A stretch of 21,530 nucleotides of DNA from a virus: the IMG/VR virus record IMGVR_UViG_3300044951_001523, positions 1 through 21,530 of that record; one strand, given 5' to 3'. A program made the translations under genes and the position numbers. Shown piece by piece: positions 1 to 21,530 of this stretch. The notes under the pieces are model-generated. The model was not told where the DNA came from and searched no databases. It saw only the letters and a program-made list of their open reading frames with translations. Numbering within the stretch: position 1 is the stretch's first letter; each line of letters starts with the position of its first letter.

Positions 1-169
1 TATCCCAAGAGCTATCAGCTATCTGAGCACATTCGGTAATAACCAATTTTACTAGATGTTCAGTATAATAGTCCATAAATCCTACGGGAGCATCGTCAGG
101 TAGATTTTTTATAGCTCTAGTTGCGTGCTGTTCTGCTTGTTCTGCTAGTTGTTTAAGATAGTGATTCAT
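1..169 (-). CDS. FAELIVxEC-family small phage protein, 3' end cut by window
   Basis: The first 56 residues of a member of the paralogous family that dominates positions 1-4300. The start MNHYLKQLAEQAEQ matches the family opening (MN-x-RI-x-x-L-A-x-Q-A), and LVKLVITECAQ matches the family core FAELIVxEC. The gene runs off the left edge, so its C-terminal tail cannot be checked. The ATG overlaps the TGA of the preceding gene (ATGA at 166-169), the usual coupling in this operon. Function is unknown; the family has no enzymatic motif that I recognise. Confidence 0.8.
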   Translation of the reverse strand, partial: MNHYLKQLAEQAEQHATRAIKNLPDDAPVGFMDYYTEHLVKLVITECAQIADSSWD

Positions 170-414
170 TCACGCATTCCTAACGGGTGAGTATTGCGTG
201 GATCATATCCGCCATTACTCAGTATATCAGTGTACTCGCTATTGATTTTATTTGCTTGGAGAACTTTAACAGCGGATTCCCATCCTTCCTGAAAAGTTTC
301 CCAATGTTCTTGTACTGTATCGTTATTGTATTCCCCATTAAAAAACACAACCTTACCATCCCGAAAGTTTGGCAAAGTATAAGTTTCAAACGCTTCACGT
401 ATTAATTGTTTCAT
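166..414 (-). CDS. hypothetical phage protein
   Basis: 82 residues beginning MKQLIREAFETYTLPNF. The start at 414 is chosen because GGAGAG lies 6 bases upstream and the ATG overlaps the TGA of the Lar-like gene (411-414); an in-frame ATG six codons earlier lacks this. The middle (VQEHWETFQEGWESAVKVL) is amphipathic and resembles the 'W..G...A' segment of the neighbouring paralog family, so it could be a distant relative, but the FAELIVxEC core is absent. Function unknown. Confidence 0.75.
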   Translation of the reverse strand: MKQLIREAFETYTLPNFRDGKVVFFNGEYNNDTVQEHWETFQEGWESAVKVLQANKINSEYTDILSNGGYDPRNTHPLGMRE

Positions 415-623
415 TTTGCTCTCCTGTTCCAATTGTCCATTGATTCTTCTTCAGTTTCACCGTACATAGTAGCCCCACATCCACCTGCTAATGTTTGACA
501 TACCACTTGCCAGGAGGTACGCTCGCGATCAGTGGGGTAAACAGTGTCCATAATATCATCACTGTTTAAGTCATGTCCACAGAATGGACAATCACGAAAC
601 GTTAGTAGTGGTTTTGATGTCAT
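411..623 (-). CDS. Lar-like restriction-alleviation zinc protein
   Basis: 70 residues with two cysteine pairs: CPFC at 12-15 and Cys42/Cys49 in a VCQTLAGGCGA context, followed by the W-N-R-R-A ending. This pattern (CPFCG, WxVxC, GCGAxxxGxTxEE, WNxRA) is that of the Lar_restr_allev/zinc-ribbon family. In Rac prophage, Lar modulates host type I restriction; many phage members of this fold are untested, so the restriction role here is inference. The start at 623 has GAGG upstream and lies 32 bases inside the preceding gene. Confidence 0.8.
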   Translation of the reverse strand: MTSKPLLTFRDCPFCGHDLNSDDIMDTVYPTDRERTSWQVVCQTLAGGCGATMYGETEEESMDNWNRRAK

Positions 624-804
624 TCTTTAATTCCTCATGTGTAAGATTGTTATATGGTTTACCGTATTTTACACTGACCGACATGATGTTGTCAAGTTCT
701 TTTTCAAACTTTTTGAATTCTGGGGTAGAATTAATCCTTTTCCAAAATGGACTATTAGGATCATCATTCATTACTTCTGCAATACTAGTTTTAATGACGG
801 TCAT
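592..804 (-). CDS. hypothetical phage protein
   Basis: 70 residues, charged and without cysteine, beginning MTVIKTSIAEVMNDD and ending in a Thr/Asn-rich tail. The 3' end overlaps the Lar-like gene by 32 bases. No convincing Shine-Dalgarno site is visible before the ATG, so translation may depend on coupling to the lipoprotein gene just upstream. Not recognised. Confidence 0.6.
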   Translation of the reverse strand: MTVIKTSIAEVMNDDPNSPFWKRINSTPEFKKFEKELDNIMSVSVKYGKPYNNLTHEELKNDIKTTTNVS

Positions 805-821
805 TATTCAATACCGCACTG

Positions 822-1061
822 TCATTTTGCCGACTCCGTACTATCAATGGTGATAGCTGTGGAGGGAGTCTTATTTGAATTCTTTACCGTGGTCGCTGAT
901 AGTGGACAACGAGCAACTGTAATCGCATGACCATTACCATCTGATAGATTATAGATTTTACAATCTTGCAATCCTTCAGGCATAACGGGCCAGCGTGTTT
1001 CTTTTGCATATGGCCCACATCCTGTTAGTAACACTAGCGAAAGTATCAAAATATATTTCAT
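822..1061 (-). CDS. small phage lipoprotein
   Basis: 79 residues starting MKYILILSLVLLTGC: a short basic start, a hydrophobic core and a lipobox LLTG-Cys15, so it should be exported and lipid-anchored by signal peptidase II. The mature part contains CKIYNLSDGNG followed by ITVARCP, giving two cysteines that could pair. I chose the start at 1061 because GAGG sits 7 bases upstream and the ATG shares a base with the TAA of the preceding gene. Phage lipoproteins of this size may be Rz1-like or act in superinfection exclusion; neither is shown here, and no Rz partner is adjacent. Confidence 0.75.
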   Translation of the reverse strand: MKYILILSLVLLTGCGPYAKETRWPVMPEGLQDCKIYNLSDGNGHAITVARCPLSATTVKNSNKTPSTAITIDSTESAK

Positions 1062-1252
1062 TACCAATCCTCTAAATTAGAAATTTCAATTGTAAATTTA
1101 CCCTTAATCCCATACAATGTAGTAGGAACAGTTAAAGTAGTTAGTGACCCAATTCCAGAACTATTGTCTTGATCCAAATCAAATTTATCAACTTCTGGAA
1201 ACGGTGCCATAACCTCTAAAATTCTTTCTACTTCTTTTTTAGTTATATACAT
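1061..1252 (-). CDS. hypothetical phage protein
   Basis: 63 residues beginning MYITKKEVERILEVM. The N-terminal half is helical and acidic, the C-terminal half strand-rich (LTVPTTLYGIKGKFTIEI). The stop TAA shares its last base with the ATG of the lipoprotein gene, so the two are translationally coupled, with the GAGGATTGG that encodes the last residues acting as the downstream ribosome site. Not recognised. Confidence 0.65.
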   Translation of the reverse strand: MYITKKEVERILEVMAPFPEVDKFDLDQDNSSGIGSLTTLTVPTTLYGIKGKFTIEISNLEDW

Positions 1253-1266
1253 TATAGTTCTCTAGG

Positions 1267-1503
1267 TTATTCTGGTACGATACCAAAATGTCTTTGTATA
1301 TTGTCAATAGATGCATCAACTGCCCAAACAATATCAAGATTATTAAAATTGCCAATACCCACTAAGGCAGTTTGACTAATGCAGTCCTGAATAATAAGTT
1401 TGGCGAACTTCTCTCTGTCAAACCATGTGTGACTAAGTGGTCCTTCTGCCACAGGTGTTGTTACCATTGCCTGTTCGACAAGTAGGAGAATTCTATCGTT
1501 CAT
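1267..1503 (-). CDS. FAELIVxEC-family small phage protein
   Basis: 78 residues: MNDRILLLVEQA start, core KFAKLIIQDC (the conserved Glu and the residue before Cys are changed), and a C-terminal IQRHFGIVPE that keeps HFG but departs from VEE. It is the most divergent tail in the array, and the gene is followed by a 14-base gap instead of an ATGA overlap. The site for translation, GGAG 7 bases before the ATG, lies in the retained tail sequence of the gene upstream. Function unknown. Confidence 0.8.
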   Translation of the reverse strand: MNDRILLLVEQAMVTTPVAEGPLSHTWFDREKFAKLIIQDCISQTALVGIGNFNNLDIVWAVDASIDNIQRHFGIVPE

Positions 1504-1506
1504 TCT

Positions 1507-1773
1507 TTAACTCCGAAAATGTTGTTTAATAGCCCGCCCCGATTCGACACAAGCCATATCCCAGGTGTGCCCCTGAGACTGCAGGCTGACTTCGTCTGTA
1601 ATTGGGCAAGGTGTTGCAACCGCAACCCTGGCACACTCTTGGATAATAAGTTCAGCGAATTGATCCATCTGACTAATAAAAGCAGGGACTGGGATATTAA
1701 CAAATCCAGCGGCATTGCGATACCCAACAAATCCAACTTCCTCAAGCAAGGCTTTGAGTCTTTGGTTGTTCAT
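1507..1773 (-). CDS. FAELIVxEC-family protein with frameshifted tail
   Basis: 88 residues: MNNQRLKALLEEVGF start, core QFAELIIQECARV, then AIKQHFRS. Relatives end HFGVEE. Here a fourth T in CATTTTCGG shifts the frame just after His-Phe, giving Arg-Ser-stop at 1507. With three Ts it would read HFGVKE and end in the usual ATGA overlap at 1500-1503. The GGAGTTAAAGAATG that serves the next gene is intact. Either a genuine late frameshift or a homopolymer error in assembly. Confidence 0.75.
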   Translation of the reverse strand: MNNQRLKALLEEVGFVGYRNAAGFVNIPVPAFISQMDQFAELIIQECARVAVATPCPITDEVSLQSQGHTWDMACVESGRAIKQHFRS

Positions 1774-1973
1774 TCTTCAACTCCGTACTCTGCTTTAACA
1801 GCATCCAATGCTTGGCGAACTTGATCCCTGATGGGCAGATACTTAACAGGATGAATAGGGTTATAATGCCAATCCTGACCGCCCCAAATTCTATCTCCCT
1901 CAAGGAGATGAAGCACCTTGGCCAAGACTTGAAAACGTGGATCAGACCACATTAGTTTAATTTCTTCTTTCAT
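1770..1973 (-). CDS. hypothetical protein carrying the array's GVEE tail
   Basis: 67 residues beginning MKEEIKLMWSDPRFQVLAKV. The body has neither the MN-x-RI start nor the FAELIVxEC core, yet the last residues are AEYGVEE, encoded by GGAGTTGAAGAATGA exactly as in the paralog family, with ATGA overlap to the next start at 1773. This is one of two apparently unrelated proteins sharing the tail. Function unknown. Confidence 0.7.
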   Translation of the reverse strand: MKEEIKLMWSDPRFQVLAKVLHLLEGDRIWGGQDWHYNPIHPVKYLPIRDQVRQALDAVKAEYGVEE

Positions 1974-2196
1974 TTTTCTCTAGCGCCTCTGTCAAACTAG
2001 CAATGACTTCTCTCAAATCATCCGGAGTCAAGAAGATTGAGACTTCTTGATCCAATTTAGGATCGTCGGACGTGTCGGACATTATGAGCCAAAACGAACC
2101 ACTTTGACTAACTCCACAATTTTTCAAACGCAGGGTAACGTACCTGTTGTCAACATCGTACACACACTGTGAATAAATCTGTTCAGTATCAATCAT
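1957..2196 (-). CDS. hypothetical phage protein
   Basis: 79 residues starting MIDTEQIYSQCVYDV. The ATG at 2196 is preferred because GGAG ends 6 bases before it; ATGs at 2199 and 2208 are in frame, but the site would then be too close or inside the gene. The predicted pattern is strands (YVTLRLKNCG, SGSFWLIMSD, VSIFLTPDDL) then a helix (LREVIASLTEALEKN). It overlaps the next gene by 17 bases. Not recognised. Confidence 0.7.
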   Translation of the reverse strand: MIDTEQIYSQCVYDVDNRYVTLRLKNCGVSQSGSFWLIMSDTSDDPKLDQEVSIFLTPDDLREVIASLTEALEKNERRN

Positions 2197-2198
2197 CA

Positions 2199-2309
2199 TC
2201 AACTCCATTGTATAGCTGCTATTGTAGCATACTTTGCATATTTTTGCCTAATCTTTATGGTTAGGCGATTTTCTGTAACATCGTATGTTGCTTCAAAAAC
2301 TGTAATCAT
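2199..2309 (-). CDS. 36-residue ORF with tail-encoded start
   Basis: Begins MITVFEATYDVTENRLTIKI and ends AAIQWS. The ATG overlaps the stop of the paralog upstream (ATGA 2306-2309) and uses that gene's GGAGTTGAAGA as ribosome site, so initiation is as well supported as for any gene in the operon. Its own last codons (TGGAGTTGA) in turn give the GGAG for the gene starting at 2196. The second half overlaps an inverted repeat and a possible promoter. It could be a real microprotein or a relay that maintains coupling. Confidence 0.6.
   Translation of the reverse strand: MITVFEATYDVTENRLTIKIRQKYAKYATIAAIQWS
2221..2250 (-). promoter_or_regulatory. possible internal promoter in the left operon
   Basis: TAGGCA (2245-2250), 18 bp, TACAAT (2221-2226) with an extended TGC. 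The -35 candidate overlaps one arm of an inverted repeat, GCCTAA/TTAGGC (2246-2251 and 2261-2266). It lies within a 36-residue ORF and could boost the distal half of the operon. Weaker than the consensus promoters. Confidence 0.4.
2246..2266. repeat. short inverted repeat, possible operator
   Basis: Perfect 6-bp arms GCCTAA and TTAGGC separated by 9 bases. It overlaps the -35 candidate of the internal promoter. There is no T-run on the minus strand after it, so it is not a terminator for this operon. Confidence 0.5.
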
Positions 2310-2563
2310 TCTTCAACTCCGAAATGTTCTTTAATCATACCATCTGCCCATTGAATGGCATCATTCCAACCTTTAGAATGTTGTCGATAATTTTCACTAT
2401 TGATTACAGTCCCACATTCCTGCACAATCAGTTCGGCGAACTTTTTGTTATACAGTTGGAACCATGCTTGGTCAAAGGTGTGGCGATCTGCTACACCTTC
2501 AGATGCCATTGCGTTTATCGGATCAAATGCCTCAAGTGCAAGTTCTTGAATTCGTGCGTTCAT
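2306..2563 (-). CDS. FAELIVxEC-family small phage protein
   Basis: 85 residues: start MNARIQELALEAF, core KKFAELIVQECG, a GWNDAIQWADG segment, then MIKEHFGVEE. The region between start and core varies strongly among paralogs while start, core and tail are nearly fixed. Coupled at both ends by ATGA overlaps (2306-2309 and 2560-2563), with GGAG in the tail of the gene upstream. Function unknown; the invariant Cys in the core is the only obvious candidate for a metal or disulfide role. Confidence 0.85.
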   Translation of the reverse strand: MNARIQELALEAFDPINAMASEGVADRHTFDQAWFQLYNKKFAELIVQECGTVINSENYRQHSKGWNDAIQWADGMIKEHFGVEE

Positions 2564-2790
2564 TCTTCAACTCCGAAATGTTGTTCAATATACCATGCGG
2601 CATTGAGTTGCCCAGCATACAATTCATCGTTCATACCACGATTATAGCATTGATTCAAGCATTCCCGCACAATCAGCTCGGCGAACTTTTGGTGATACAG
2701 ATCCATCCAACCCTGTCGATCAAGATCCGCATCGATGCTTTTGGCCTGTAGTCTAGCCTGTTCGTAAAGTTCTCGAATTCGTTCGTTCAT
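2560..2790 (-). CDS. FAELIVxEC-family small phage protein
   Basis: 76 residues: start MNERIRELYEQARL, core QKFAELIVRECLNQC, tail YIEQHFGVEE. The core is nearly identical at the DNA level to the copies at 2306, 3101 and 10795, which suggests recent duplication or gene conversion. ATGA overlaps on both sides. Function unknown. Confidence 0.85.
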   Translation of the reverse strand: MNERIRELYEQARLQAKSIDADLDRQGWMDLYHQKFAELIVRECLNQCYNRGMNDELYAGQLNAAWYIEQHFGVEE

Positions 2791-3104
2791 TCAGCAACTC
2801 CAAAATTTGATACCACAATTCCGGCAGATAGGACAGAATAGATATCTGCGGGATCGGCAGTAAAAACACCCCGAACAAGATAACATTCCATTGTAGTTCC
2901 CGTAATTAATTTAGATTCAAACGTTTTACTATCTAACGCCCAGCCTTCAACATTGTTGGCAACGAACCTACGATAGTTTGATCGTCTGAGTTCACATTCA
3001 GCAGTTACCGGTTTCATATAATTTTCAAAGGTAACTACTTCAAAACAATCAGCGATATCATCCAATACACCTTGCGGAATTTCTTCAAGATTAATTGTTG
3101 TCAT
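2787..3104 (-). CDS. hypothetical protein with array tail FGVAE
   Basis: 105 residues starting MTTINLEEIPQGVLDDIADC. It lacks both the MN-x-RI start and the FAELIVxEC core, and looks like an independent alpha/beta protein (FEVVTFENY, RRFVANNVEGWALD, ECYLVRGVF). It nevertheless ends VSNFGVAE, encoded by TTTGGAGTTGCTGAATGA, giving the same overlapping start signal for the next gene. Best example of the tail joined to a different body. Function unknown. Confidence 0.75.
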   Translation of the reverse strand: MTTINLEEIPQGVLDDIADCFEVVTFENYMKPVTAECELRRSNYRRFVANNVEGWALDSKTFESKLITGTTMECYLVRGVFTADPADIYSVLSAGIVVSNFGVAE

Positions 3105-3358
3105 TCTTCAACTCCGAAATGTTTCTTAATCGCTCTGGAACAATCGTGTGTTCCTCTTGACCATTCTGAACTAATCTTATGATCTAATAGTAAATCACAA
3201 TGATTGGCACATTCCTGCACAATCAGTTCGGCGAACTTTTCAGCACTCTTTTCACCCTGCCAATAAACAGTAGGAGGATTACCCTCACGCATAGGATCAC
3301 CGTCATAATGACGTATGCTATGGGCTTGTAGGTATAGTTCACGAATTCTGTCGTTCAT
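3101..3358 (-). CDS. FAELIVxEC-family small phage protein
   Basis: 85 residues: start MNDRIRELYLQAHS, a variable stretch rich in charged residues, core EKFAELIVQECANHC, then SRGTHDCSRAIKKHFGVEE. Three further cysteine or histidine residues follow the core (HC, HDC), so metal binding is imaginable but not shown. ATGA coupled on both sides. Function unknown. Confidence 0.85.
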   Translation of the reverse strand: MNDRIRELYLQAHSIRHYDGDPMREGNPPTVYWQGEKSAEKFAELIVQECANHCDLLLDHKISSEWSRGTHDCSRAIKKHFGVEE

Positions 3359-3582
3359 TCCGTAACTCCAAAATGTCGTTTAATCGCACCACTACATTCT
3401 TTAGCAAAGATAGCAGTTGGTGCCTGATCGTGTAGGAACCTTCCACCTTCTACAACTCCAACACATTCCCGAATAATAAGTTCGGCGAACTTTTCTATAT
3501 CAAAATGCCGACTAGCCATTACTTGGTCTCCCCAAATATCGGCACCGGCCTGATCGGCAAGTTGTTCAATTCGTTCGTTCAT
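3355..3582 (-). CDS. FAELIVxEC-family small phage protein
   Basis: 75 residues: start MNERIEQLADQAGAD, core EKFAELIIRECVGVV, tail AIKRHFGVTE. The tail codons GGAGTTACGGAATGA differ from the consensus only in the codon between GTT and GAA, leaving the GGAG and ATGA signals untouched. Its own start depends on the tail of the paralog upstream (3579-3582). Function unknown. Confidence 0.85.
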   Translation of the reverse strand: MNERIEQLADQAGADIWGDQVMASRHFDIEKFAELIIRECVGVVEGGRFLHDQAPTAIFAKECSGAIKRHFGVTE

Positions 3583-3827
3583 TCAGCAACTCCAAAATGT
3601 TTTGTAATCAACTCTTTTGCTTTGCGTAGCCCAGCGTTATACCCATACTCCCAGTCCTCACACGAATCGTGATAAGCGGCAGTTTCAATTTCCTTGATAC
3701 ACTCCAACCCGATCAGTTGAACAAACATCTGGATGTTAGTGTAGTCCGCGGTGCATTCTTCGCGGCCGCGCTGGTCAATAGTGATGTCAAAACACTTTTG
3801 CATAATTGCTGTGATTCGTGCGTTCAT
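3579..3827 (-). CDS. divergent FAELIVxEC-family protein
   Basis: 82 residues from the ATG at 3827: start MNARITAIMQKCFD, a diverged core MFVQLIGLECIKEI, an EYGYNAGLRKAKELI segment and tail TKHFGVAE. An in-frame ATG 15 codons earlier is rejected because 3827 gives the standard ATGA overlap with the preceding stop. The core keeps the hydrophobic pattern and the E-C pair. Function unknown. Confidence 0.8.
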   Translation of the reverse strand: MNARITAIMQKCFDITIDQRGREECTADYTNIQMFVQLIGLECIKEIETAAYHDSCEDWEYGYNAGLRKAKELITKHFGVAE

Positions 3828-4063
3828 TCTTGATCTGCCAAAAGATTTAATTTTTCTACCACTTGAACACACATACTTCTAATGCCAAGCACTCGTTCAC
3901 GGTGACTTAGAATTTCTTCGGTCTCGTTCAGAATGTCATTGACAATACACCAAGCACCAGGATAATCGAGTTCTCCACGACCAGCCTTGACACCAAGGCA
4001 TACAGCTTGGGCCAGTAAGTCTTTCAACATAATCTTGTCGTCAATAATACGATCTTCAATCAT
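3824..4063 (-). CDS. hypothetical phage protein
   Basis: 79 residues, helical, beginning MIEDRIIDDKIMLKDLLAQA and ending VVEKLNLLADQE. No FAELIVxEC core and no GVEE tail; it is inserted between paralogs but keeps the ATGA overlaps, and receives its ribosome site from the FGVEE tail upstream (GGAGTTGAAGAATG). Not recognised. Confidence 0.7.
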   Translation of the reverse strand: MIEDRIIDDKIMLKDLLAQAVCLGVKAGRGELDYPGAWCIVNDILNETEEILSHRERVLGIRSMCVQVVEKLNLLADQE

Positions 4064-4269
4064 TCTTCAACTCCGAACTGTTCTTTGATAAATTTTCCAG
4101 CAGTGCTGGGTGCTCCGTATGCTTCGTTAAGAGTGTCAACTAAATGAGCACATTCCCGAACAATAAGTTCGGCGAACTCCTCGATAGCAGCACGTTGCAC
4201 CGGCCCTGTCTCAAAAAAGTTTTGGATACGTTCATTGCACTTGGCAAGTTGTCGAATCTTTTCGTTCAT
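4060..4269 (-). CDS. FAELIVxEC-family small phage protein
   Basis: 69 residues from the ATG at 4269: start MNEKIRQLAKCNERI, core EEFAELIVRECAHLV, tail FIKEQFGVEE. The start is fixed by GAGG 5 bases upstream and by ATGA overlap with the preceding gene. This is the promoter-proximal paralog of the left array. Function unknown. Confidence 0.85.
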   Translation of the reverse strand: MNEKIRQLAKCNERIQNFFETGPVQRAAIEEFAELIVRECAHLVDTLNEAYGAPSTAGKFIKEQFGVEE

Positions 4270-4529
4270 ACCGTCCTCGCTCTCCACAGCAATTCTGTAG
4301 CAACCCTGCGTCCAACTAGTTCTGCATGAGCCTGTACTTCTGCAGTGTTCTTCTTGGTCAACTTAACATATATAAAGATATCAGTGCGACACCGTGCGGC
4401 CATCATGTCAGCGAACTCGTCCCACTTAAAGTTAACGCCACAGTTAGCAGGATTTGAGAACATGGCAAAATCACCTGCCACTATAGCAGTGCAGATGCTA
4501 TTGATAAAGAGTTGTTGATTTTGAGTCAT
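4266..4529 (-). CDS. hypothetical protein, first gene of the left operon
   Basis: 87 residues from the ATG at 4529, MTQNQQLFINSICTAIVAGD, with GAAGG seven bases upstream. Transcribed from the consensus promoter at 4556-4584, about 27 bases ahead. It contains KWDEFADMMAARCRTD, which has the same hydrophobic/Cys spacing as FAELIVxEC, so it may be a remote relative with a longer C-terminal part. Function unknown. Confidence 0.75.
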   Translation of the reverse strand: MTQNQQLFINSICTAIVAGDFAMFSNPANCGVNFKWDEFADMMAARCRTDIFIYVKLTKKNTAEVQAHAELVGRRVATELLWRARTV

Positions 4530-4590: not shown

Positions 4591-5610
4591 TTATTTTTCA
4601 CGCAGGAGAAAAGAATTTGAAATCACCTTAAAGGACACTTGGCTGCTATTACACTTGAACACCAATCCTTCTCGTTCAGGACCATCTACTCCGCATAGTA
4701 CGCTCGCACCCTCAGCAGTGAACAACAGGTCATTTACCTTTTGTGCCTCGATTGAAAACGCAGACCTCAGCACGGGAACGTGCTTGATGTCAAGCTTAGC
4801 AACAAAGGTGATACGCTCGGCAGGGGTCAAGTATCGGCCTGCGTCAATATCGTAAATGTCAAATACAAGAAACTGCTGACCACGGACCTTGTAGCGATTA
4901 CCTTGAATCCCCTCACCAATAATCTCACCTTGAATAGCTAGGTTGCGGCCGCAAGCCCTAATCTTTTCAATGATTTGTTCGCGGCGAGCCACTTGCCACA
5001 TTGTATTCGTAGCATTATCGCGGAGTTGAAGATTCCGCGAACAAACCCCCTCTTCCTCATCACGCACAAAAACCGTCATTGATGATCCATCTAGCTTTTC
5101 CGTAACTTCCCAAGTAAGGTCTTGGGTACGCCACTCTGCTAATTCATTGGTAAGATTTTGAATGCGTTCCTGATCAGTCTTTGGGATCCAGCCGGGGAAC
5201 AACCCAACCGCATCGCCTGCCATTTGCGCGGAAACGGGAGCATCGTATTTCACGACACCGAGAGTCTCCGAAACATCAGCACCTTCCCACAGGTCAGCCC
5301 CAAAATTAGTGAGACAAGACATTGGTAGCAGCAAGCCTTGACTCAATTGCTTGCGCAATCGGACACTACGCAGCCGCTCACCCTTGATGCCATTAAACTC
5401 TAGCGGCTCGCGGCCCTTACTTAGAAAGGGAGCAAGATGCGTGGGGATCCAAGAGTCAATTTCACAGTAGACTGCAAGATCGCCCGCGACAAATTCGCCT
5501 CTCTTGACCACTACAGTCCATCCACCGATGACAGCGGTTTCAATTGAATCGGCATCAGGGATTAGCCTGAGTTCATCAATCTTACGAATGGTAGCCATCT
5601 TTCTAATCAT
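4591..5610 (-). CDS. ATP-dependent RNA ligase, DraRnl (Rnl5)-like
   Basis: 339 residues. Residues 1-120 match the N-terminal OB-type region seen in Deinococcus RNA ligase DraRnl, with the pattern IPDADSIE, GWTVVVKRGEF, GDLAVYCEIDSWIP. The nucleotidyltransferase core follows: motif I EKLDGSS with Lys172 as AMP acceptor, SRNLQL near 191-196, motif III VFDIYDI at 249-255, motif IV EGLVFK at 314-319 and motif V SFKVIS at 326-331. These enzymes seal 3'-OH/5'-PO4 nicks in RNA; in phages, RNA repair is usually thought to counter host tRNA cleavage. The start at 5610 has GGAG 6 bases upstream and ATGA overlap with the small gene before it. Confidence 0.9.
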   Translation of the reverse strand: MIRKMATIRKIDELRLIPDADSIETAVIGGWTVVVKRGEFVAGDLAVYCEIDSWIPTHLAPFLSKGREPLEFNGIKGERLRSVRLRKQLSQGLLLPMSCLTNFGADLWEGADVSETLGVVKYDAPVSAQMAGDAVGLFPGWIPKTDQERIQNLTNELAEWRTQDLTWEVTEKLDGSSMTVFVRDEEEGVCSRNLQLRDNATNTMWQVARREQIIEKIRACGRNLAIQGEIIGEGIQGNRYKVRGQQFLVFDIYDIDAGRYLTPAERITFVAKLDIKHVPVLRSAFSIEAQKVNDLLFTAEGASVLCGVDGPEREGLVFKCNSSQVSFKVISNSFLLREK

Positions 5611-7250: not shown

Positions 7251-7438
7251 CCGACCTCGTCTTCGTCGATCAGCAAGCGATCAGTCGGCTCCGTGCGCCA
7301 CCTGAGTTGAACCGGCTTGTCCAAGAGCAGGGTGTGTTGAACCTTGCCGCCGTATTTCACGCGACTGAGTTCAACGGTGCCAGTAACCTGCTGCCCTTGA
7401 TACATCGCAGTGATCGTCTTGCCTTCTTTGTTCCACAT
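7247..7438 (-). CDS. 63-residue hypothetical protein
   Basis: Begins MWNKEGKTITAMYQGQQVTG, continues TVELSRVKYGGKVQHTLLLD and ends DEDEVG. Alternating strands with Gly turns suggest a small beta-barrel. AAGGA seven bases before the ATG, promoter at 7471-7499. It ends with Gly-stop where GGTTGACC forms the next -35 box. Function unknown. Confidence 0.75.
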   Translation of the reverse strand: MWNKEGKTITAMYQGQQVTGTVELSRVKYGGKVQHTLLLDKPVQLRWRTEPTDRLLIDEDEVG

Positions 7439-10191: not shown

Positions 10192-10386
10192 TCATCCCAG
10201 GACCTCTTGCCTACGAAGCAGGGCCCACTCGCCATCCAACTGGCATCGCAGGTCGTTTAGGATTTGACTGTAAGTCCAGTTTGGGTGCGCATTGTGCGTT
10301 ATCTTCTGCTCTAGATCAATCACCAGCAACAAGGCGTCGATTGCGGCTTGCAGATAATTCACCAATCGTTGTTGATCTGTAATCAT
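10192..10386 (-). CDS. 64-residue helical hypothetical protein
   Basis: MITDQQRLVNYLQAAIDALL, ending LLRRQEVLG. Two long helices separated by THNAHPNWTYSQ. The ATG overlaps the paralog's TGA (10383-10386), and the GGAG for it lies in that gene's GVSR tail. Not recognised. Confidence 0.7.
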   Translation of the reverse strand: MITDQQRLVNYLQAAIDALLLVIDLEQKITHNAHPNWTYSQILNDLRCQLDGEWALLRRQEVLG

Positions 10387-10598
10387 CGTGATACTCCGTA
10401 TCGTTGTGCCAGTTGACGAATAGTTTCAATGCGGGCCGGCCCCAGTGTATCGTCATTAGTCAATTCACCCAGTAAGTCAAACACAATCAACTCGGCGAAC
10501 TTTGTTTCCCACTCAATATCATAGAATTTATCGCCAAAATAGTATTTGTCACACCAGGCATCGGCCTCTATAGCTATCTTGCGAATTCGGTCGTTCAT
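10383..10598 (-). CDS. FAELIVxEC-family protein outside the main array
   Basis: 71 residues from the ATG at 10598: start MNDRIRKIAIEADAW, core TKFAELIVFDLLGEL (the E-C pair is replaced by D-L), tail LAQRYGVSR. The tail codons GGAGTATCACGATGA still provide GGAG and the overlapping ATG although only Gly-Val of the peptide motif is kept. That supports selection on the DNA signal. Function unknown. Confidence 0.8.
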   Translation of the reverse strand: MNDRIRKIAIEADAWCDKYYFGDKFYDIEWETKFAELIVFDLLGELTNDDTLGPARIETIRQLAQRYGVSR

Positions 10599-10798
10599 TC
10601 CCACTTCTCCTCATATGCTATATAGGTATCACGATCCCCATTATATCTTGTCCAAGCATCATCAGCGGCCCTGCCTGGAGTATCTCCATAACCACGCAAT
10701 TGATAGCGGGTCATACATTCGTCGTCTGCCCAATCCAAAAAAGCGCGGAAATCATCTCCACCCTTACATTGAATCGTGATATTCAAAAAGTGAATCAT
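10595..10798 (-). CDS. 67-residue hypothetical phage protein
   Basis: MIHFLNITIQCKGGDDFRAF, then RYQLRGYGDTPGRAADDAWT and ending YIAYEEKWE. The RGYGDTPxxAADDAW block is one I recall from other phage hypotheticals. Sits between two FAELIVxEC paralogs, with ATGA overlaps at both ends; its own EEKWE tail (GAGGAGAAGTGGGAATGA) supplies GGAG for the next gene, using different residues to the same end. Confidence 0.75.
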   Translation of the reverse strand: MIHFLNITIQCKGGDDFRAFLDWADDECMTRYQLRGYGDTPGRAADDAWTRYNGDRDTYIAYEEKWE

Positions 10799-10968
10799 TC
10801 TTCAACTCCGAAATGTTTCCTAATTGCCATAGCATCAATCTCTCTTAGTTGATTGCAACATTCCTGCACAATCAACTGGGCGAACTTATCTAGCTTAGTC
10901 GGAACGCCTGTTGGATTGTGGACTAGCAGTCCAGCTTCGCGGGCAAGTTCTAGAATTCGTTCGTTCAT
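10795..10968 (-). CDS. short FAELIVxEC-family protein outside the main array
   Basis: 57 residues, the shortest complete member: start MNERILELAREAGLL, core DKFAQLIVQECCNQL, tail AIRKHFGVEE. The variable segment is almost absent, so the family minimum appears to be start, core and tail. AAGGA 6 bases before the ATG at 10968; promoter at 10999-11027. Function unknown. Confidence 0.85.
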   Translation of the reverse strand: MNERILELAREAGLLVHNPTGVPTKLDKFAQLIVQECCNQLREIDAMAIRKHFGVEE

Positions 10969-19194: not shown

Positions 19195-20199
19195 TTACGC
19201 AACGGTGAGGTTGCCTTTGTATGCAGAATTCAGCCACTTAGCATACGTTTCCGCTTGTTCACTGATTTTAGTAAGTTCATACTTACCACAGAACCGCATA
19301 AGATGCACCCCAACCTGAGGTGTAATAGTTCTGCGGACATTGTCGGCGATTGACTTATCAACTGATTCCTTGATTGAATCAGGCTGGGCAGTTAGATCGA
19401 TTAGGGTACGATTACGTTCATAATCGTCACGTACTCGGTGTTCTTCGCCATTATGGTCTACCCATCGTTGTAGCATTATGTTATTCCAATTAAAGCCCTG
19501 TTTATTCCTATCGGCATAGGCTTCAATCAATCCAACCTTATTTTTACTGCCCTTTGTGCGGACTCCCGGATAAGCACTGAATACATTGTCAGTCGCATCT
19601 CCGCGCATACATTTTTCAAATAAATGAAACGCTGGTTCACCCAACAGTTTTGGCTCTTTAGTTTTCTTATCTTTGACAATGCGTCCCTTGTCATCAAAAT
19701 AACCATCAAGTTTAATCAATTGGCCTGAAACACCATTGTATTGCTGTACATTTTCACTGATCAACTGTACATAATCCGTGTCACTTGAAATAATGTAATG
19801 ATTGTCATCTGGATGCAGATGCACAAATCGAGCGATGAGGTCATCAGCCTCCGCAGTTGCGTCACGCAGAACACTGACATTGGTCTTTTCACGTAGAAAT
19901 GTAGTAAACAATTCATACGTTTCCCAGAACATCTTATTTTCTTCCTGTTCCGTCTCCGTCAATGCTTGAGCTACAACAGTACGATTGGCTTTATAAGGTT
20001 TGTAATGATCTTTCCGCCACGAGCGGCCTTCGAGGCAAAAGACAACGTGGTCGATTCCAAATTTACGAACAGCCTGATTAACAGACGATAGCGTAAGATG
20101 TAGTGCCATTCCGATCTTTTCCCAAGTATCACTGTTGCGTGATGCAACGTGTCGGGCACGGAAGAACGTATTTGCTGTATCGATTAGGGCATACTTCAT
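19195..20199 (-). CDS. 5'-3' exonuclease/flap nuclease, T4 RNase H-like
   Basis: 334 residues. The FEN/PIN metal sites are visible: LIDTANTF with Asp7, basic arch YKPYKANR (67-73), TAEADDLIA with Glu117/Asp119/Asp120, SSDTDY with Asp140/Asp142, and RGDATDN (199-205, Asp201/Asp204) followed by the helix-hairpin-helix region PGVRTKGSKN. T4 RNase H (about 305 residues) removes RNA primers from Okazaki fragments; this is the likely role here. GGAG precedes the ATG at 20199; promoter at 20226-20254. First gene of an eight-gene unit. Confidence 0.9.
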   Translation of the reverse strand: MKYALIDTANTFFRARHVASRNSDTWEKIGMALHLTLSSVNQAVRKFGIDHVVFCLEGRSWRKDHYKPYKANRTVVAQALTETEQEENKMFWETYELFTTFLREKTNVSVLRDATAEADDLIARFVHLHPDDNHYIISSDTDYVQLISENVQQYNGVSGQLIKLDGYFDDKGRIVKDKKTKEPKLLGEPAFHLFEKCMRGDATDNVFSAYPGVRTKGSKNKVGLIEAYADRNKQGFNWNNIMLQRWVDHNGEEHRVRDDYERNRTLIDLTAQPDSIKESVDKSIADNVRRTITPQVGVHLMRFCGKYELTKISEQAETYAKWLNSAYKGNLTVA

Positions 20200-20261: not shown

Positions 20262-20711
20262 CTAACTTACCTCAGTTCTACCATTACCCAAATCCCTACT
20301 CCTAATCACCCGAACATCTCGGTTATCGGGATCAGCTTGATTTTGTTCGTAGATTTCTAAAGCAATATTCCTGCAGACCGTCTGAAACCAACGGTCCACG
20401 ATAACCGTATCAGCATCATCATCACGCATCTTGTATCCGGCTTTGATTAGATTCAACAAAAATTTGTCATTCCAATCCAACTCAAATGACCCGTTATTAA
20501 TATCAGTTGGGTCGATTTCTACTTTAAGTATGTTGATATATGGTTGGTTGTTGAGTGTGGCGGTTTCTTTAGCAGTTGGCGGTGGAGGTTCAACCTTTTG
20601 AGGACGAGGCTTCCGTGGTTTCTTCTCCTTTACTACTGCAACGGGTGGAATATCTACAGGAGGGGGTGTTTCGGGTTCAGATGTAAACCATTTTTTAAAT
20701 TTATTAAGCAT
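20262..20711 (-). CDS. conserved phage protein with proline-rich linker
   Basis: 149 residues from the ATG at 20711: MLNKFKKWFTSEPETPPPVD, a basic/proline linker (KEKKPRKPRPQK, VEPPPPTAKE), then a globular part with SFELDWNDKFLLNLIKAGY, IVDRWFQTVCRNIALEIYEQ and NRDVRVIRSRDLG. The SGSFELDWNDKF and VDRWFQxVCRN blocks are, from recall, conserved in T4-like phages, where the protein is unassigned. AAGGA seven bases upstream. Its start lies inside the end of the UvsE gene. Confidence 0.8.
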   Translation of the reverse strand: MLNKFKKWFTSEPETPPPVDIPPVAVVKEKKPRKPRPQKVEPPPPTAKETATLNNQPYINILKVEIDPTDINNGSFELDWNDKFLLNLIKAGYKMRDDDADTVIVDRWFQTVCRNIALEIYEQNQADPDNRDVRVIRSRDLGNGRTEVS

Positions 20712-21530
20712 TAATTGTTCCTTGATTTTTAGTATATCTATCATAGAGTTGACGAGACCCTAAGTTTTTAGATTTGCACTCACACATTATATCAAATTCC
20801 TCTAGAAATGTCAATGCCCAATCATTAACTGCGTCTGACCACAGATAGTTACTATGGGCTCTGAGCTTTTGTTTCTTGTGTCCAGAAGCTAGTAGAGTGG
20901 CAAGATCGGGGCGCTGGTCTCCGGGAAAATCTCCGAGTACGTCTTCGCGAGATACACTGTAATGCATAGTAGGACGCTTACCTCGCCAACTATCAACAAT
21001 CCTTTTAATACGGTCATCAGATGCTTCAATATATTCTCCTGTGTGTACCCAATGGTGATGCACATCTAACACCAAAGCGAGATCGTGTGCCAATTCGAGG
21101 CTAGAGTCGATTCCCCAGGTGAGTTCGTCATTTTCGATAGTAATACAGTTTCTCGCCTCTGGTGAGAGACGTTGAAGTGCGGCTTTAATACCGGCTGGAC
21201 CTTCTCGACCTGATATGTGTACGTTGATTTTAAAGTCTTGGAAAGTCTTGCCGTATCCCAACCACCTGACCATATCTGCATGATATTCAAATTCCTCTAT
21301 ACTCTTATTTACTACTTCTTCGCGGCTACTCGCAAGAACTGTGAATTGTCCAGGATGAAATGATAAACGCACATCATTTGCTCGGGCTGTTTCACCAATA
21401 GGAGCAAACCAATCAGCTAACATCTTTTGAATATCAGTAGATTGCCAAAAAGGTTTCCAATCCTCGTGAGTATAAAATGAAAGCATATCGCTGGTCAATC
21501 TAACCATGCGCAATTCAGGATCTAGTGAGC
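20704..21530 (-). CDS. UV-damage endonuclease UvsE/UVDE-like, N-terminus cut by window
   Basis: About 275 residues visible; the reading frame is open to the window edge, so the ATG-like starts near 21510 are internal. RMVRLTSDML, LSFHPGQFTVLAS, INVHISGREG, ITIENDELTWG, LVLDVHHHWVH and MHYSVSRED are the ordered metal-binding blocks of the UVDE TIM barrel. The enzyme nicks DNA 5' of pyrimidine dimers, giving ATP-independent UV repair. The residue two before the late His, a metal-site lysine in Thermus UVDE as I recall, is Thr here. The 3' end overlaps the next gene by 8 bases. Confidence 0.88.
   Translation of the reverse strand, partial: SLDPELRMVRLTSDMLSFYTHEDWKPFWQSTDIQKMLADWFAPIGETARANDVRLSFHPGQFTVLASSREEVVNKSIEEFEYHADMVRWLGYGKTFQDFKINVHISGREGPAGIKAALQRLSPEARNCITIENDELTWGIDSSLELAHDLALVLDVHHHWVHTGEYIEASDDRIKRIVDSWRGKRPTMHYSVSREDVLGDFPGDQRPDLATLLASGHKKQKLRAHSNYLWSDAVNDWALTFLEEFDIMCECKSKNLGSRQLYDRYTKNQGTINA

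Follow-up and report, generated by a model that had tools for sequence, protein, structure and literature searches.

A conserved C-terminal tail as a candidate ribosome-binding site for the next gene in a shuffled array of small phage genes

Introduction

Why do neighbouring small genes in a phage operon end in the same few residues, even where the proteins otherwise have nothing in common? This question is raised by a 21.5-kb virus fragment (IMG/VR virus record IMGVR_UViG_3300044951_001523, positions 1 to 21,530; hereafter the window), which carries an array of paralogous genes, interspersed with unrelated ones, whose products share the C-terminal sequence FGVEE. An initial annotation made from the sequence alone proposed that the DNA encoding this tail is a portable stop-plus-start module, in which GGAG lies seven nucleotides (nt) ahead of an ATG that overlaps the stop codon, allowing genes to be added or swapped without breaking the operon. 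Here we follow this proposal through related viral loci. The comparison largely supports the view that the tail DNA, GGAGTTGAAGAATGA, is maintained as a ribosome-binding site (RBS) signal for the next gene. We estimate a probability of roughly 0.77 that the tail is a dual-coded joint, serving at once as protein end and as RBS of the following gene, in a family that is shuffled between DNA islands with its translational coupling kept.

Results

Three scans of viral contigs yielded 249 related loci, with up to 12 family genes per locus. Family members were collected with a profile built on the N-terminal part and the core only, the tail being left out, which gave about 700 matches and 583 members with distinct tails; genes were called by us with a simple hexamer score. 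Loci L081-L200 had been retrieved by their tail DNA; wherever counts would be biased, they were left out or those of their tails preceded by TTY were disregarded. All loci come from metagenomes, in which repeated islands could lead assembly astray; nonetheless, many chimeric halves recur in separate samples. At the sensitivities used, searches of Pfam and PHROGs returned only marginal and mutually inconsistent matches, a fold search of the PDB gave no significant match (best E 1.5), and the structural matches in BFVD are uncharacterised proteins of uncultured Caudovirales phages. Near-match and protein searches of cultured phages found no convincing relative at the sensitivities used, and a search of cultured phages with the DNA islands returned only chance matches of 17-26 nt. 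The best cultured-phage match, MW202520 (E 0.04), was rejected: no gene is annotated over the matching stretch, and its annotation shows no array. This is a large, unnamed environmental phage family of small proteins lacking a Pfam or PHROG assignment.

The geometry described in the initial annotation was borne out. In the window, where all motif counts refer to the minus strand, TTCGGAGTTGAAGAATGA occurs exactly five times (at 2306, 2560, 3101, 4060 and 10795) against a chance expectation of none, with GGAG 7 nt ahead of an ATG overlapping TGA, and the shorter GGAGTTGAAGAATGA has six exact occurrences, or 16 when up to three mismatches are allowed, against 0.88 expected. The variants ending GVTE (GGAGTTACGGAATGA, at 3355) and GVSR (GGAGTATCACGATGA, at 10383) change residues and retain both GGAG and ATGA, as had been noted. 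Across 595 family genes, 390 meet the next gene at -4 and 42 at -1, and GGAG stands 7 nt ahead of the start in 301 of the 390 ATGA pairs and 4 nt ahead in a further 30. The distance from GGAG to the start is 7 nt in the 326 tails whose stop lies 8 nt after GGAG (ATGA) and also in 64 tails whose stop lies only 5 nt after it. Across tails, the stop falls anywhere between 5 and 20 nt past GGAG, and where it lies 11 to 20 nt away (as in FGVEDE and FGVKNETN) an ATG is often still found 6-7 nt past GGAG; in a smaller group of tails the start comes 4 nt past GGAG. Where a start is in reach, 434 of 449 tails use GGA as the glycine codon, compared to 21 of 31 tails without one (p = 4.7e-7) and a frequency of 0.26 in the linkers. 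Ahead of 143 unrelated next genes that are alike only in ATGA, the tail DNA is conserved and conservation ceases at ATGA.

Loss of reading frame separates the peptide from the DNA. GGAGTTGAAGAATGA holds TGA in two frames, and 11 family genes and nine others pass through the module in the +1 frame, its DNA intact, and end in RS or WS at a TGA inside it. Three of the family genes (in L013, L085 and L148) belong to a single lineage, which leaves at least eight apparently separate ones that have lost the peptide in this way. The window gene at 1507, reported initially as a frameshifted copy, does end in HFRS (+1 frame), yet GGAGTTAAAGAATG is intact. In a relative, L019, the homologues of 1507 and 1267 are separated by an extra family gene. 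This gene is absent in the window, where gene 1507 continues directly into CGGAGTTAAAGAATG, out of frame and with the RBS sequence of the next gene intact; the frameshifted copy is thus accounted for by a gene that is present or absent at that joint.

The module is also found on proteins outside the family, as the initial annotation had noted. The window proteins encoded at 1770-1973 and 2787-3104 lack the family core, have no family-profile match and end in GGAGTTGAAGAATGA and GGAGTTGCTGAATGA, respectively. About ten unrelated protein types terminate exactly in the module. In unbiased loci, exact GGAGTTGAAGA is carried by 12 of 115 unrelated genes that overlap a family gene, compared to three of 272 preceding non-family genes (p = 6e-5). 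The residues ahead of GVEE differ between these proteins (VQGVEE, DAGVEE, AEGVEE, YHGVEE, EYGVEE, YLGVEE, QYIGVEE and others), which places the beginning of the common part at GGAG. Moreover, the spacer TTGAAGA follows GGAG in 12 of 26 unrelated genes preceding family genes, for a composition expectation of 0.0009. GGAG at 7 nt also occurs in 98 non-family ATGA pairs, many of which end in GE.. or GD... As a separate observation, another unrelated family (in L119, L121, L137 and L156; for example L137 3102-3339) ends in CPHCGEKL with GGAGARAARYTATGA; this tail is zinc-ribbon-like and likewise has GGAG 7 nt ahead of an overlapping ATG.

The comparison of third positions suggested by the initial annotation does not single out the tail, since synonymous sites in the FAELIVxEC core and in the start are conserved as well. 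The core codons reach AAG 0.87, TTC 0.75, GCC 0.83, GAG 0.83, TTG 0.81 and ATT 0.95, for linker values of 0.37, 0.23, 0.18, 0.25, 0.31 and 0.65, respectively, and this conservation runs against the local codon preference. The start island has AAC at 0.86 and CGA at 0.85, and the tail, with GGA at 0.97 and GTT at 0.93, is only somewhat tighter at synonymous sites than either. A palindrome in the core of some window genes, AGTTCGCCGAACT, was dismissed as a conserved element, the family consensus being GTTCGCCGAGTTGA. The islands are apparently conserved as DNA because of shuffling and recombination. Among family gene pairs that share DNA, 148 share one half only and 18 share both, whereas the corresponding numbers for non-family genes of the same loci are four and 89 (odds ratio 183); the half-sharing pairs are not independent, and counted as components the comparison becomes 28+38 versus 13 for the family and 1+3 versus 68 for non-family genes.

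The edges of these exchanges map to the core and to the tail junction. Similarity of shared N halves mostly stops 23-27 nt past the F codon of the core and that of shared C halves mostly starts between -6 and +3 nt of the core and, compared in register, often stops within a few nt of the stop codon; the downstream gene differs in 75 of 81 C-half-sharing pairs. In nearly all gene pairs the linkers are unrelated in DNA sequence, and the island codons match. In one locus (L006), the gene at 3370-3612 combines the N half of window gene 3101-3358 with the C half of window gene 2560-2790. The same gene types recur in five relatives (L001, L114, L019, L088 and L027), in the same order in L001 and permuted in the others, and most joints remain ATGA or TAATG overlaps. 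Genes in these arrays appear to be shuffled as half-gene cassettes whose edges lie on conserved DNA islands, the tail among them.

Part of the tail also belongs to the protein. In the predicted fold (a model from 38 sequences, pLDDT (predicted local distance difference test) 90.6) three helices span residues 3-19, 25-50 (the core) and 58-72; the third ends at F72 of HFG and places GVEE beyond the helix, and we infer that HFG(V/I) may act as a helix C-cap. Some members that are not coupled to a next gene keep HFG(V/I) with other glycine codons (GGT in FGIVPE, GGC in FGINT and GGG in FGIE). FG[V/I] is partly a protein feature, kept by some uncoupled homologues. The initial annotation had reasoned that tail residues retained with free synonymous variation outside operons would argue for a protein function, and these codons, together with the position of helix 3, go part of the way towards that outcome.

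Other features of the window and related loci

The features of the window are collected in Table 1. The tail of gene 3824, GCAGATCAAGAATGA, retains the overlap and has no GGAG, and a 36-residue open reading frame after gene 2306 (2199-2309) ends in AATGGAGTTGA-TGATG, so that here, too, a +1-frame stretch of GGAGTT precedes a start.

Table 1. Coordinates of the array, its joints and its islands in the window
Feature	Position	Strand	Remark
Array	1267..4287	-	eight members of the family with four to five unrelated genes, mostly joined by ATGA overlaps
Tail/RBS module TTCGGAGTTGAAGAATGA of family gene 2306-2563	2306..2323	-	next start at 2309
Tail/RBS module of family gene 2560-2790	2560..2577	-	exact TTCGGAGTTGAAGAATGA
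Tail/RBS module of family gene 3101-3358	3101..3118	-	next gene (3104 to 2787) unrelated
Tail/RBS module of family gene 4060-4269	4060..4077	-	next gene (3824-4063) unrelated
Tail/RBS module of family gene 10795-10968	10795..10812	-	exact TTCGGAGTTGAAGAATGA
Module variant GGAGTTACGGAATGA (GVTE)	3355..3369	-	GGAG and ATGA kept
Module variant GGAGTTGCTGAATGA (GVAE)	3579..3593	-	
Module variant GGAGTATCACGATGA (GVSR)	10383..10397	-	GGAG and ATGA kept
Exact module GGAGTTGAAGAATGA on unrelated protein 1770-1973 (EYGVEE)	1770..1784	-	no family-profile match
Module GGAGTTGCTGAATGA on unrelated protein 2787-3104 (NFGVAE)	2787..2801	-	no family-profile match
Module GGAGTTAAAGAATGA; gene 1507-1773 reads it in the +1 frame, ending in HFRS	1500..1514	-	one extra family gene at this joint in relative L019
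Core island AAGTTCGCCGAGCTGATTGTGCGGGAATGC (KFAELIVREC) of gene 2560-2790	2659..2688	-	intragenic exchange point
Core island of gene 3101-3358	3209..3238	-	N half shared with L006 gene 3370-3612
Start island ATGAACGAACGAATT of gene 2560-2790	2776..2790	-	
Family gene without overlap coupling (HFGIVPE, Gly codon GGT)	1267..1503	-	next start 14 nt downstream

Two further kinds of gene end recur in related loci. Behind the FGVE-TAA end of terminal family genes (L198 9781-10039, L158 426-675 and 1414-1606) lie CCCTACAGGTTGACAGGTCTTT and a TATACT-like element; this shared block resembles a promoter and forms a second recurring joint at the operon end. Family-like genes in L088 (4864-5097), L114 (4959-5213) and L027 (7184-7402 and 8197-8340) share the tail EWP(R/K)EL-TAATG, with no GGAG.

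Elsewhere in the window, landmarks of a phage fragment include an RNA ligase with a PHA02142 OB-fold domain (4591-5610), a 5'-3' exonuclease N-terminal domain (19195-20199) and a UvdE-type ultraviolet endonuclease (20704-21513). An intergenic cassette of up to 66 nt is repeated between 7436 and 14888 in copies about 60-97% alike (at 7436, 7971, 8730, 9075, 9893, 10124, 11547, 12123, 13514, 14237, 14472 and 14829). On the minus strand it reads TTGACAATAAATGG...GTGCTATAATA...AAGGAACTGAAAATG, which resembles a repeated sigma70-type promoter with an RBS leader, and it is also translated in frame as KEL.M extensions on several genes.

Discussion

In the model we favour, HFG(V/I) would close the final helix in a small phage protein of three helices, the GGA codon and the G of the next codon would form the GGAG Shine-Dalgarno site, and the codons after GGAG would supply, with the stop, the spacer and the ATGA (or TAATG) overlap, such that ribosomes ending one gene would begin the next, provided that translation is indeed coupled. 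As the RBS would be carried by the 3' end of the upstream gene, we propose that any next gene with its ATG in the overlap would be expressed. Recombination, presumably homologous, between short DNA islands (one formed by the start and the tail joint, the other by the FAELIVxEC core) would then exchange whole and half genes with operon coupling kept. The islands may be selected for recombination, and portability itself may be selected, rather than a good RBS being retained while recombination proceeds. A wider reading, which we regard as possible but would bet slightly against, is that of a combinatorial gene-shuffling array that builds hundreds of three-helix proteins from interchangeable N and C half-cassettes, with start, core and tail islands selected for recombination and the tail also selected as a built-in RBS that keeps new neighbours translated.

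Several observations weigh against the dual-coded joint or narrow it. GGAG is absent upstream in 54 of the 390 ATGA-coupled family members (~14%), 103 of the 115 unrelated genes preceding family genes lack the exact module, the synonymous conservation of the core has no RBS explanation, and the half-sharing pairs, as stated above, are not independent. In addition, GGA in tails with no start in reach still exceeds the linker baseline, so part of the conservation of the tail comes from inheritance or homogenisation. The notion of a portable stop-plus-start module therefore stands in part: the DNA outlives the peptide in frameshifted lineages, the start stays fixed while the stop moves, the tail precedes unrelated genes alike only in ATGA, unrelated proteins end in the exact module, and most ATGA joints survive permutation of gene order. 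It has to be qualified in that FG[V/I] partly serves the protein and that exchange also takes place inside genes, not at the joints alone.

Other explanations account for parts of these data. Were the tail simply a set of short homologies which, with core and start, anchor cassette exchange or homogenisation, GGAG being incidental, the synonymous conservation of all three islands, the coincidence of exchange edges with them and the persistence of GGA without a start in reach would all be expected; we nevertheless consider this unlikely, as the 7-nt spacing is constant while the stop moves, the glycine codon is looser in uncoupled genes and generic unrelated pairs also place GGAG at 7 nt. The latter pairs are instead what an ordinary intragenic Shine-Dalgarno site would produce: in ATGA phase, GGAG at 7 nt always encodes Gly followed by Val, Glu, Asp, Ala or Gly, such sites are widespread in prokaryotes (PMC6728339), and the GE.. 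and GD.. ends of many of the 98 non-family pairs fit convergence on GVEE-like tails. We hold convergence, too, to be improbable, because it does not predict the exact TTGAAGA spacer on unrelated genes and leaves the core island and the half exchanges unexplained.

That FGVEE serves the protein, as helix cap, partner-binding site or C-terminal signal, with the RBS a by-product, is suggested by the uncoupled genes with GGT, GGC and GGG codons and by a glycine past the helix end that suits a C-cap. This seems quite improbable to us given that separate frameshifted lineages drop the peptide and retain the DNA, that GGA reaches 97% with a start in reach while the stop moves and the start is fixed, and that unrelated proteins have GVEE alone in common and not the residues preceding it. 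Recent spread of the family could make islands merely seem conserved, and some relatives are near-identical (most L001 genes at 100% protein identity); only 3641 of 31125 locus pairs have any blastn match, however, and linker DNA is unrelated in nearly all gene pairs despite matching island codons, which makes this explanation very improbable indeed.

If the dual-coded joint is correct, the islands would let new genes and protein halves join with little loss of operon function, a concrete route by which phage accessory operons could gain, lose and recombine tiny genes with translation kept. This bears on a long-standing puzzle of phage mosaicism, in which short boundary homologies are usually not found. 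A peptide motif conserved largely as a DNA signal would also call for caution when function is predicted from conserved tails, and the analysis brings to light an abundant family of environmental phage proteins with cassette-like half exchange.

Literature searches on peptide motifs and half-gene exchange returned nothing relevant, and in the literature searched we found no case that combines an RBS-encoding protein tail, a family-wide array and half-gene exchange; the individual elements have counterparts. Intragenic Shine-Dalgarno sites are common where genes overlap and are often important in reinitiation, and termination-reinitiation coupling at ATGA or TGATG resembles the present joints in its stop/start overlap, its Shine-Dalgarno site within the 3'-terminal part of the upstream gene and its start a few nt further on (PMC6728339). 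There, the sites lie in unrelated genes one by one, whereas here they form the conserved C-terminal tail of one family, up to 12 per locus, and are passed to unrelated neighbours. Cluster K mycobacteriophages carry Start-Associated Sequences (SAS), a 13-base-pair element, GGGATAGGAGCCC, which similarly is a short repeat with a Shine-Dalgarno core just ahead of the starts of non-structural genes of different families; unlike the tail, SAS are not described as the conserved protein end of a paralogue family (PMC3203893). Identity with SAS was excluded, GGGATAGGAGCCC being unmatched here even with up to two mismatches. Rad52-like phage recombinases, with their relaxed homologous recombination, would by analogy be plausible machinery for mosaic exchange at imperfect homology (PMC3945230); the islands described here measure about 15-35 nt. 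The exchange itself has a parallel in lambdoid phages, for which short conserved gene-border sequences have been proposed as sites where genes are swapped via homologous recombination (Clark et al. 2001, as cited in PMC3029335). In contrast to that proposal, one of the islands here is intragenic, such that half genes would be swapped, and the border islands code for one family.

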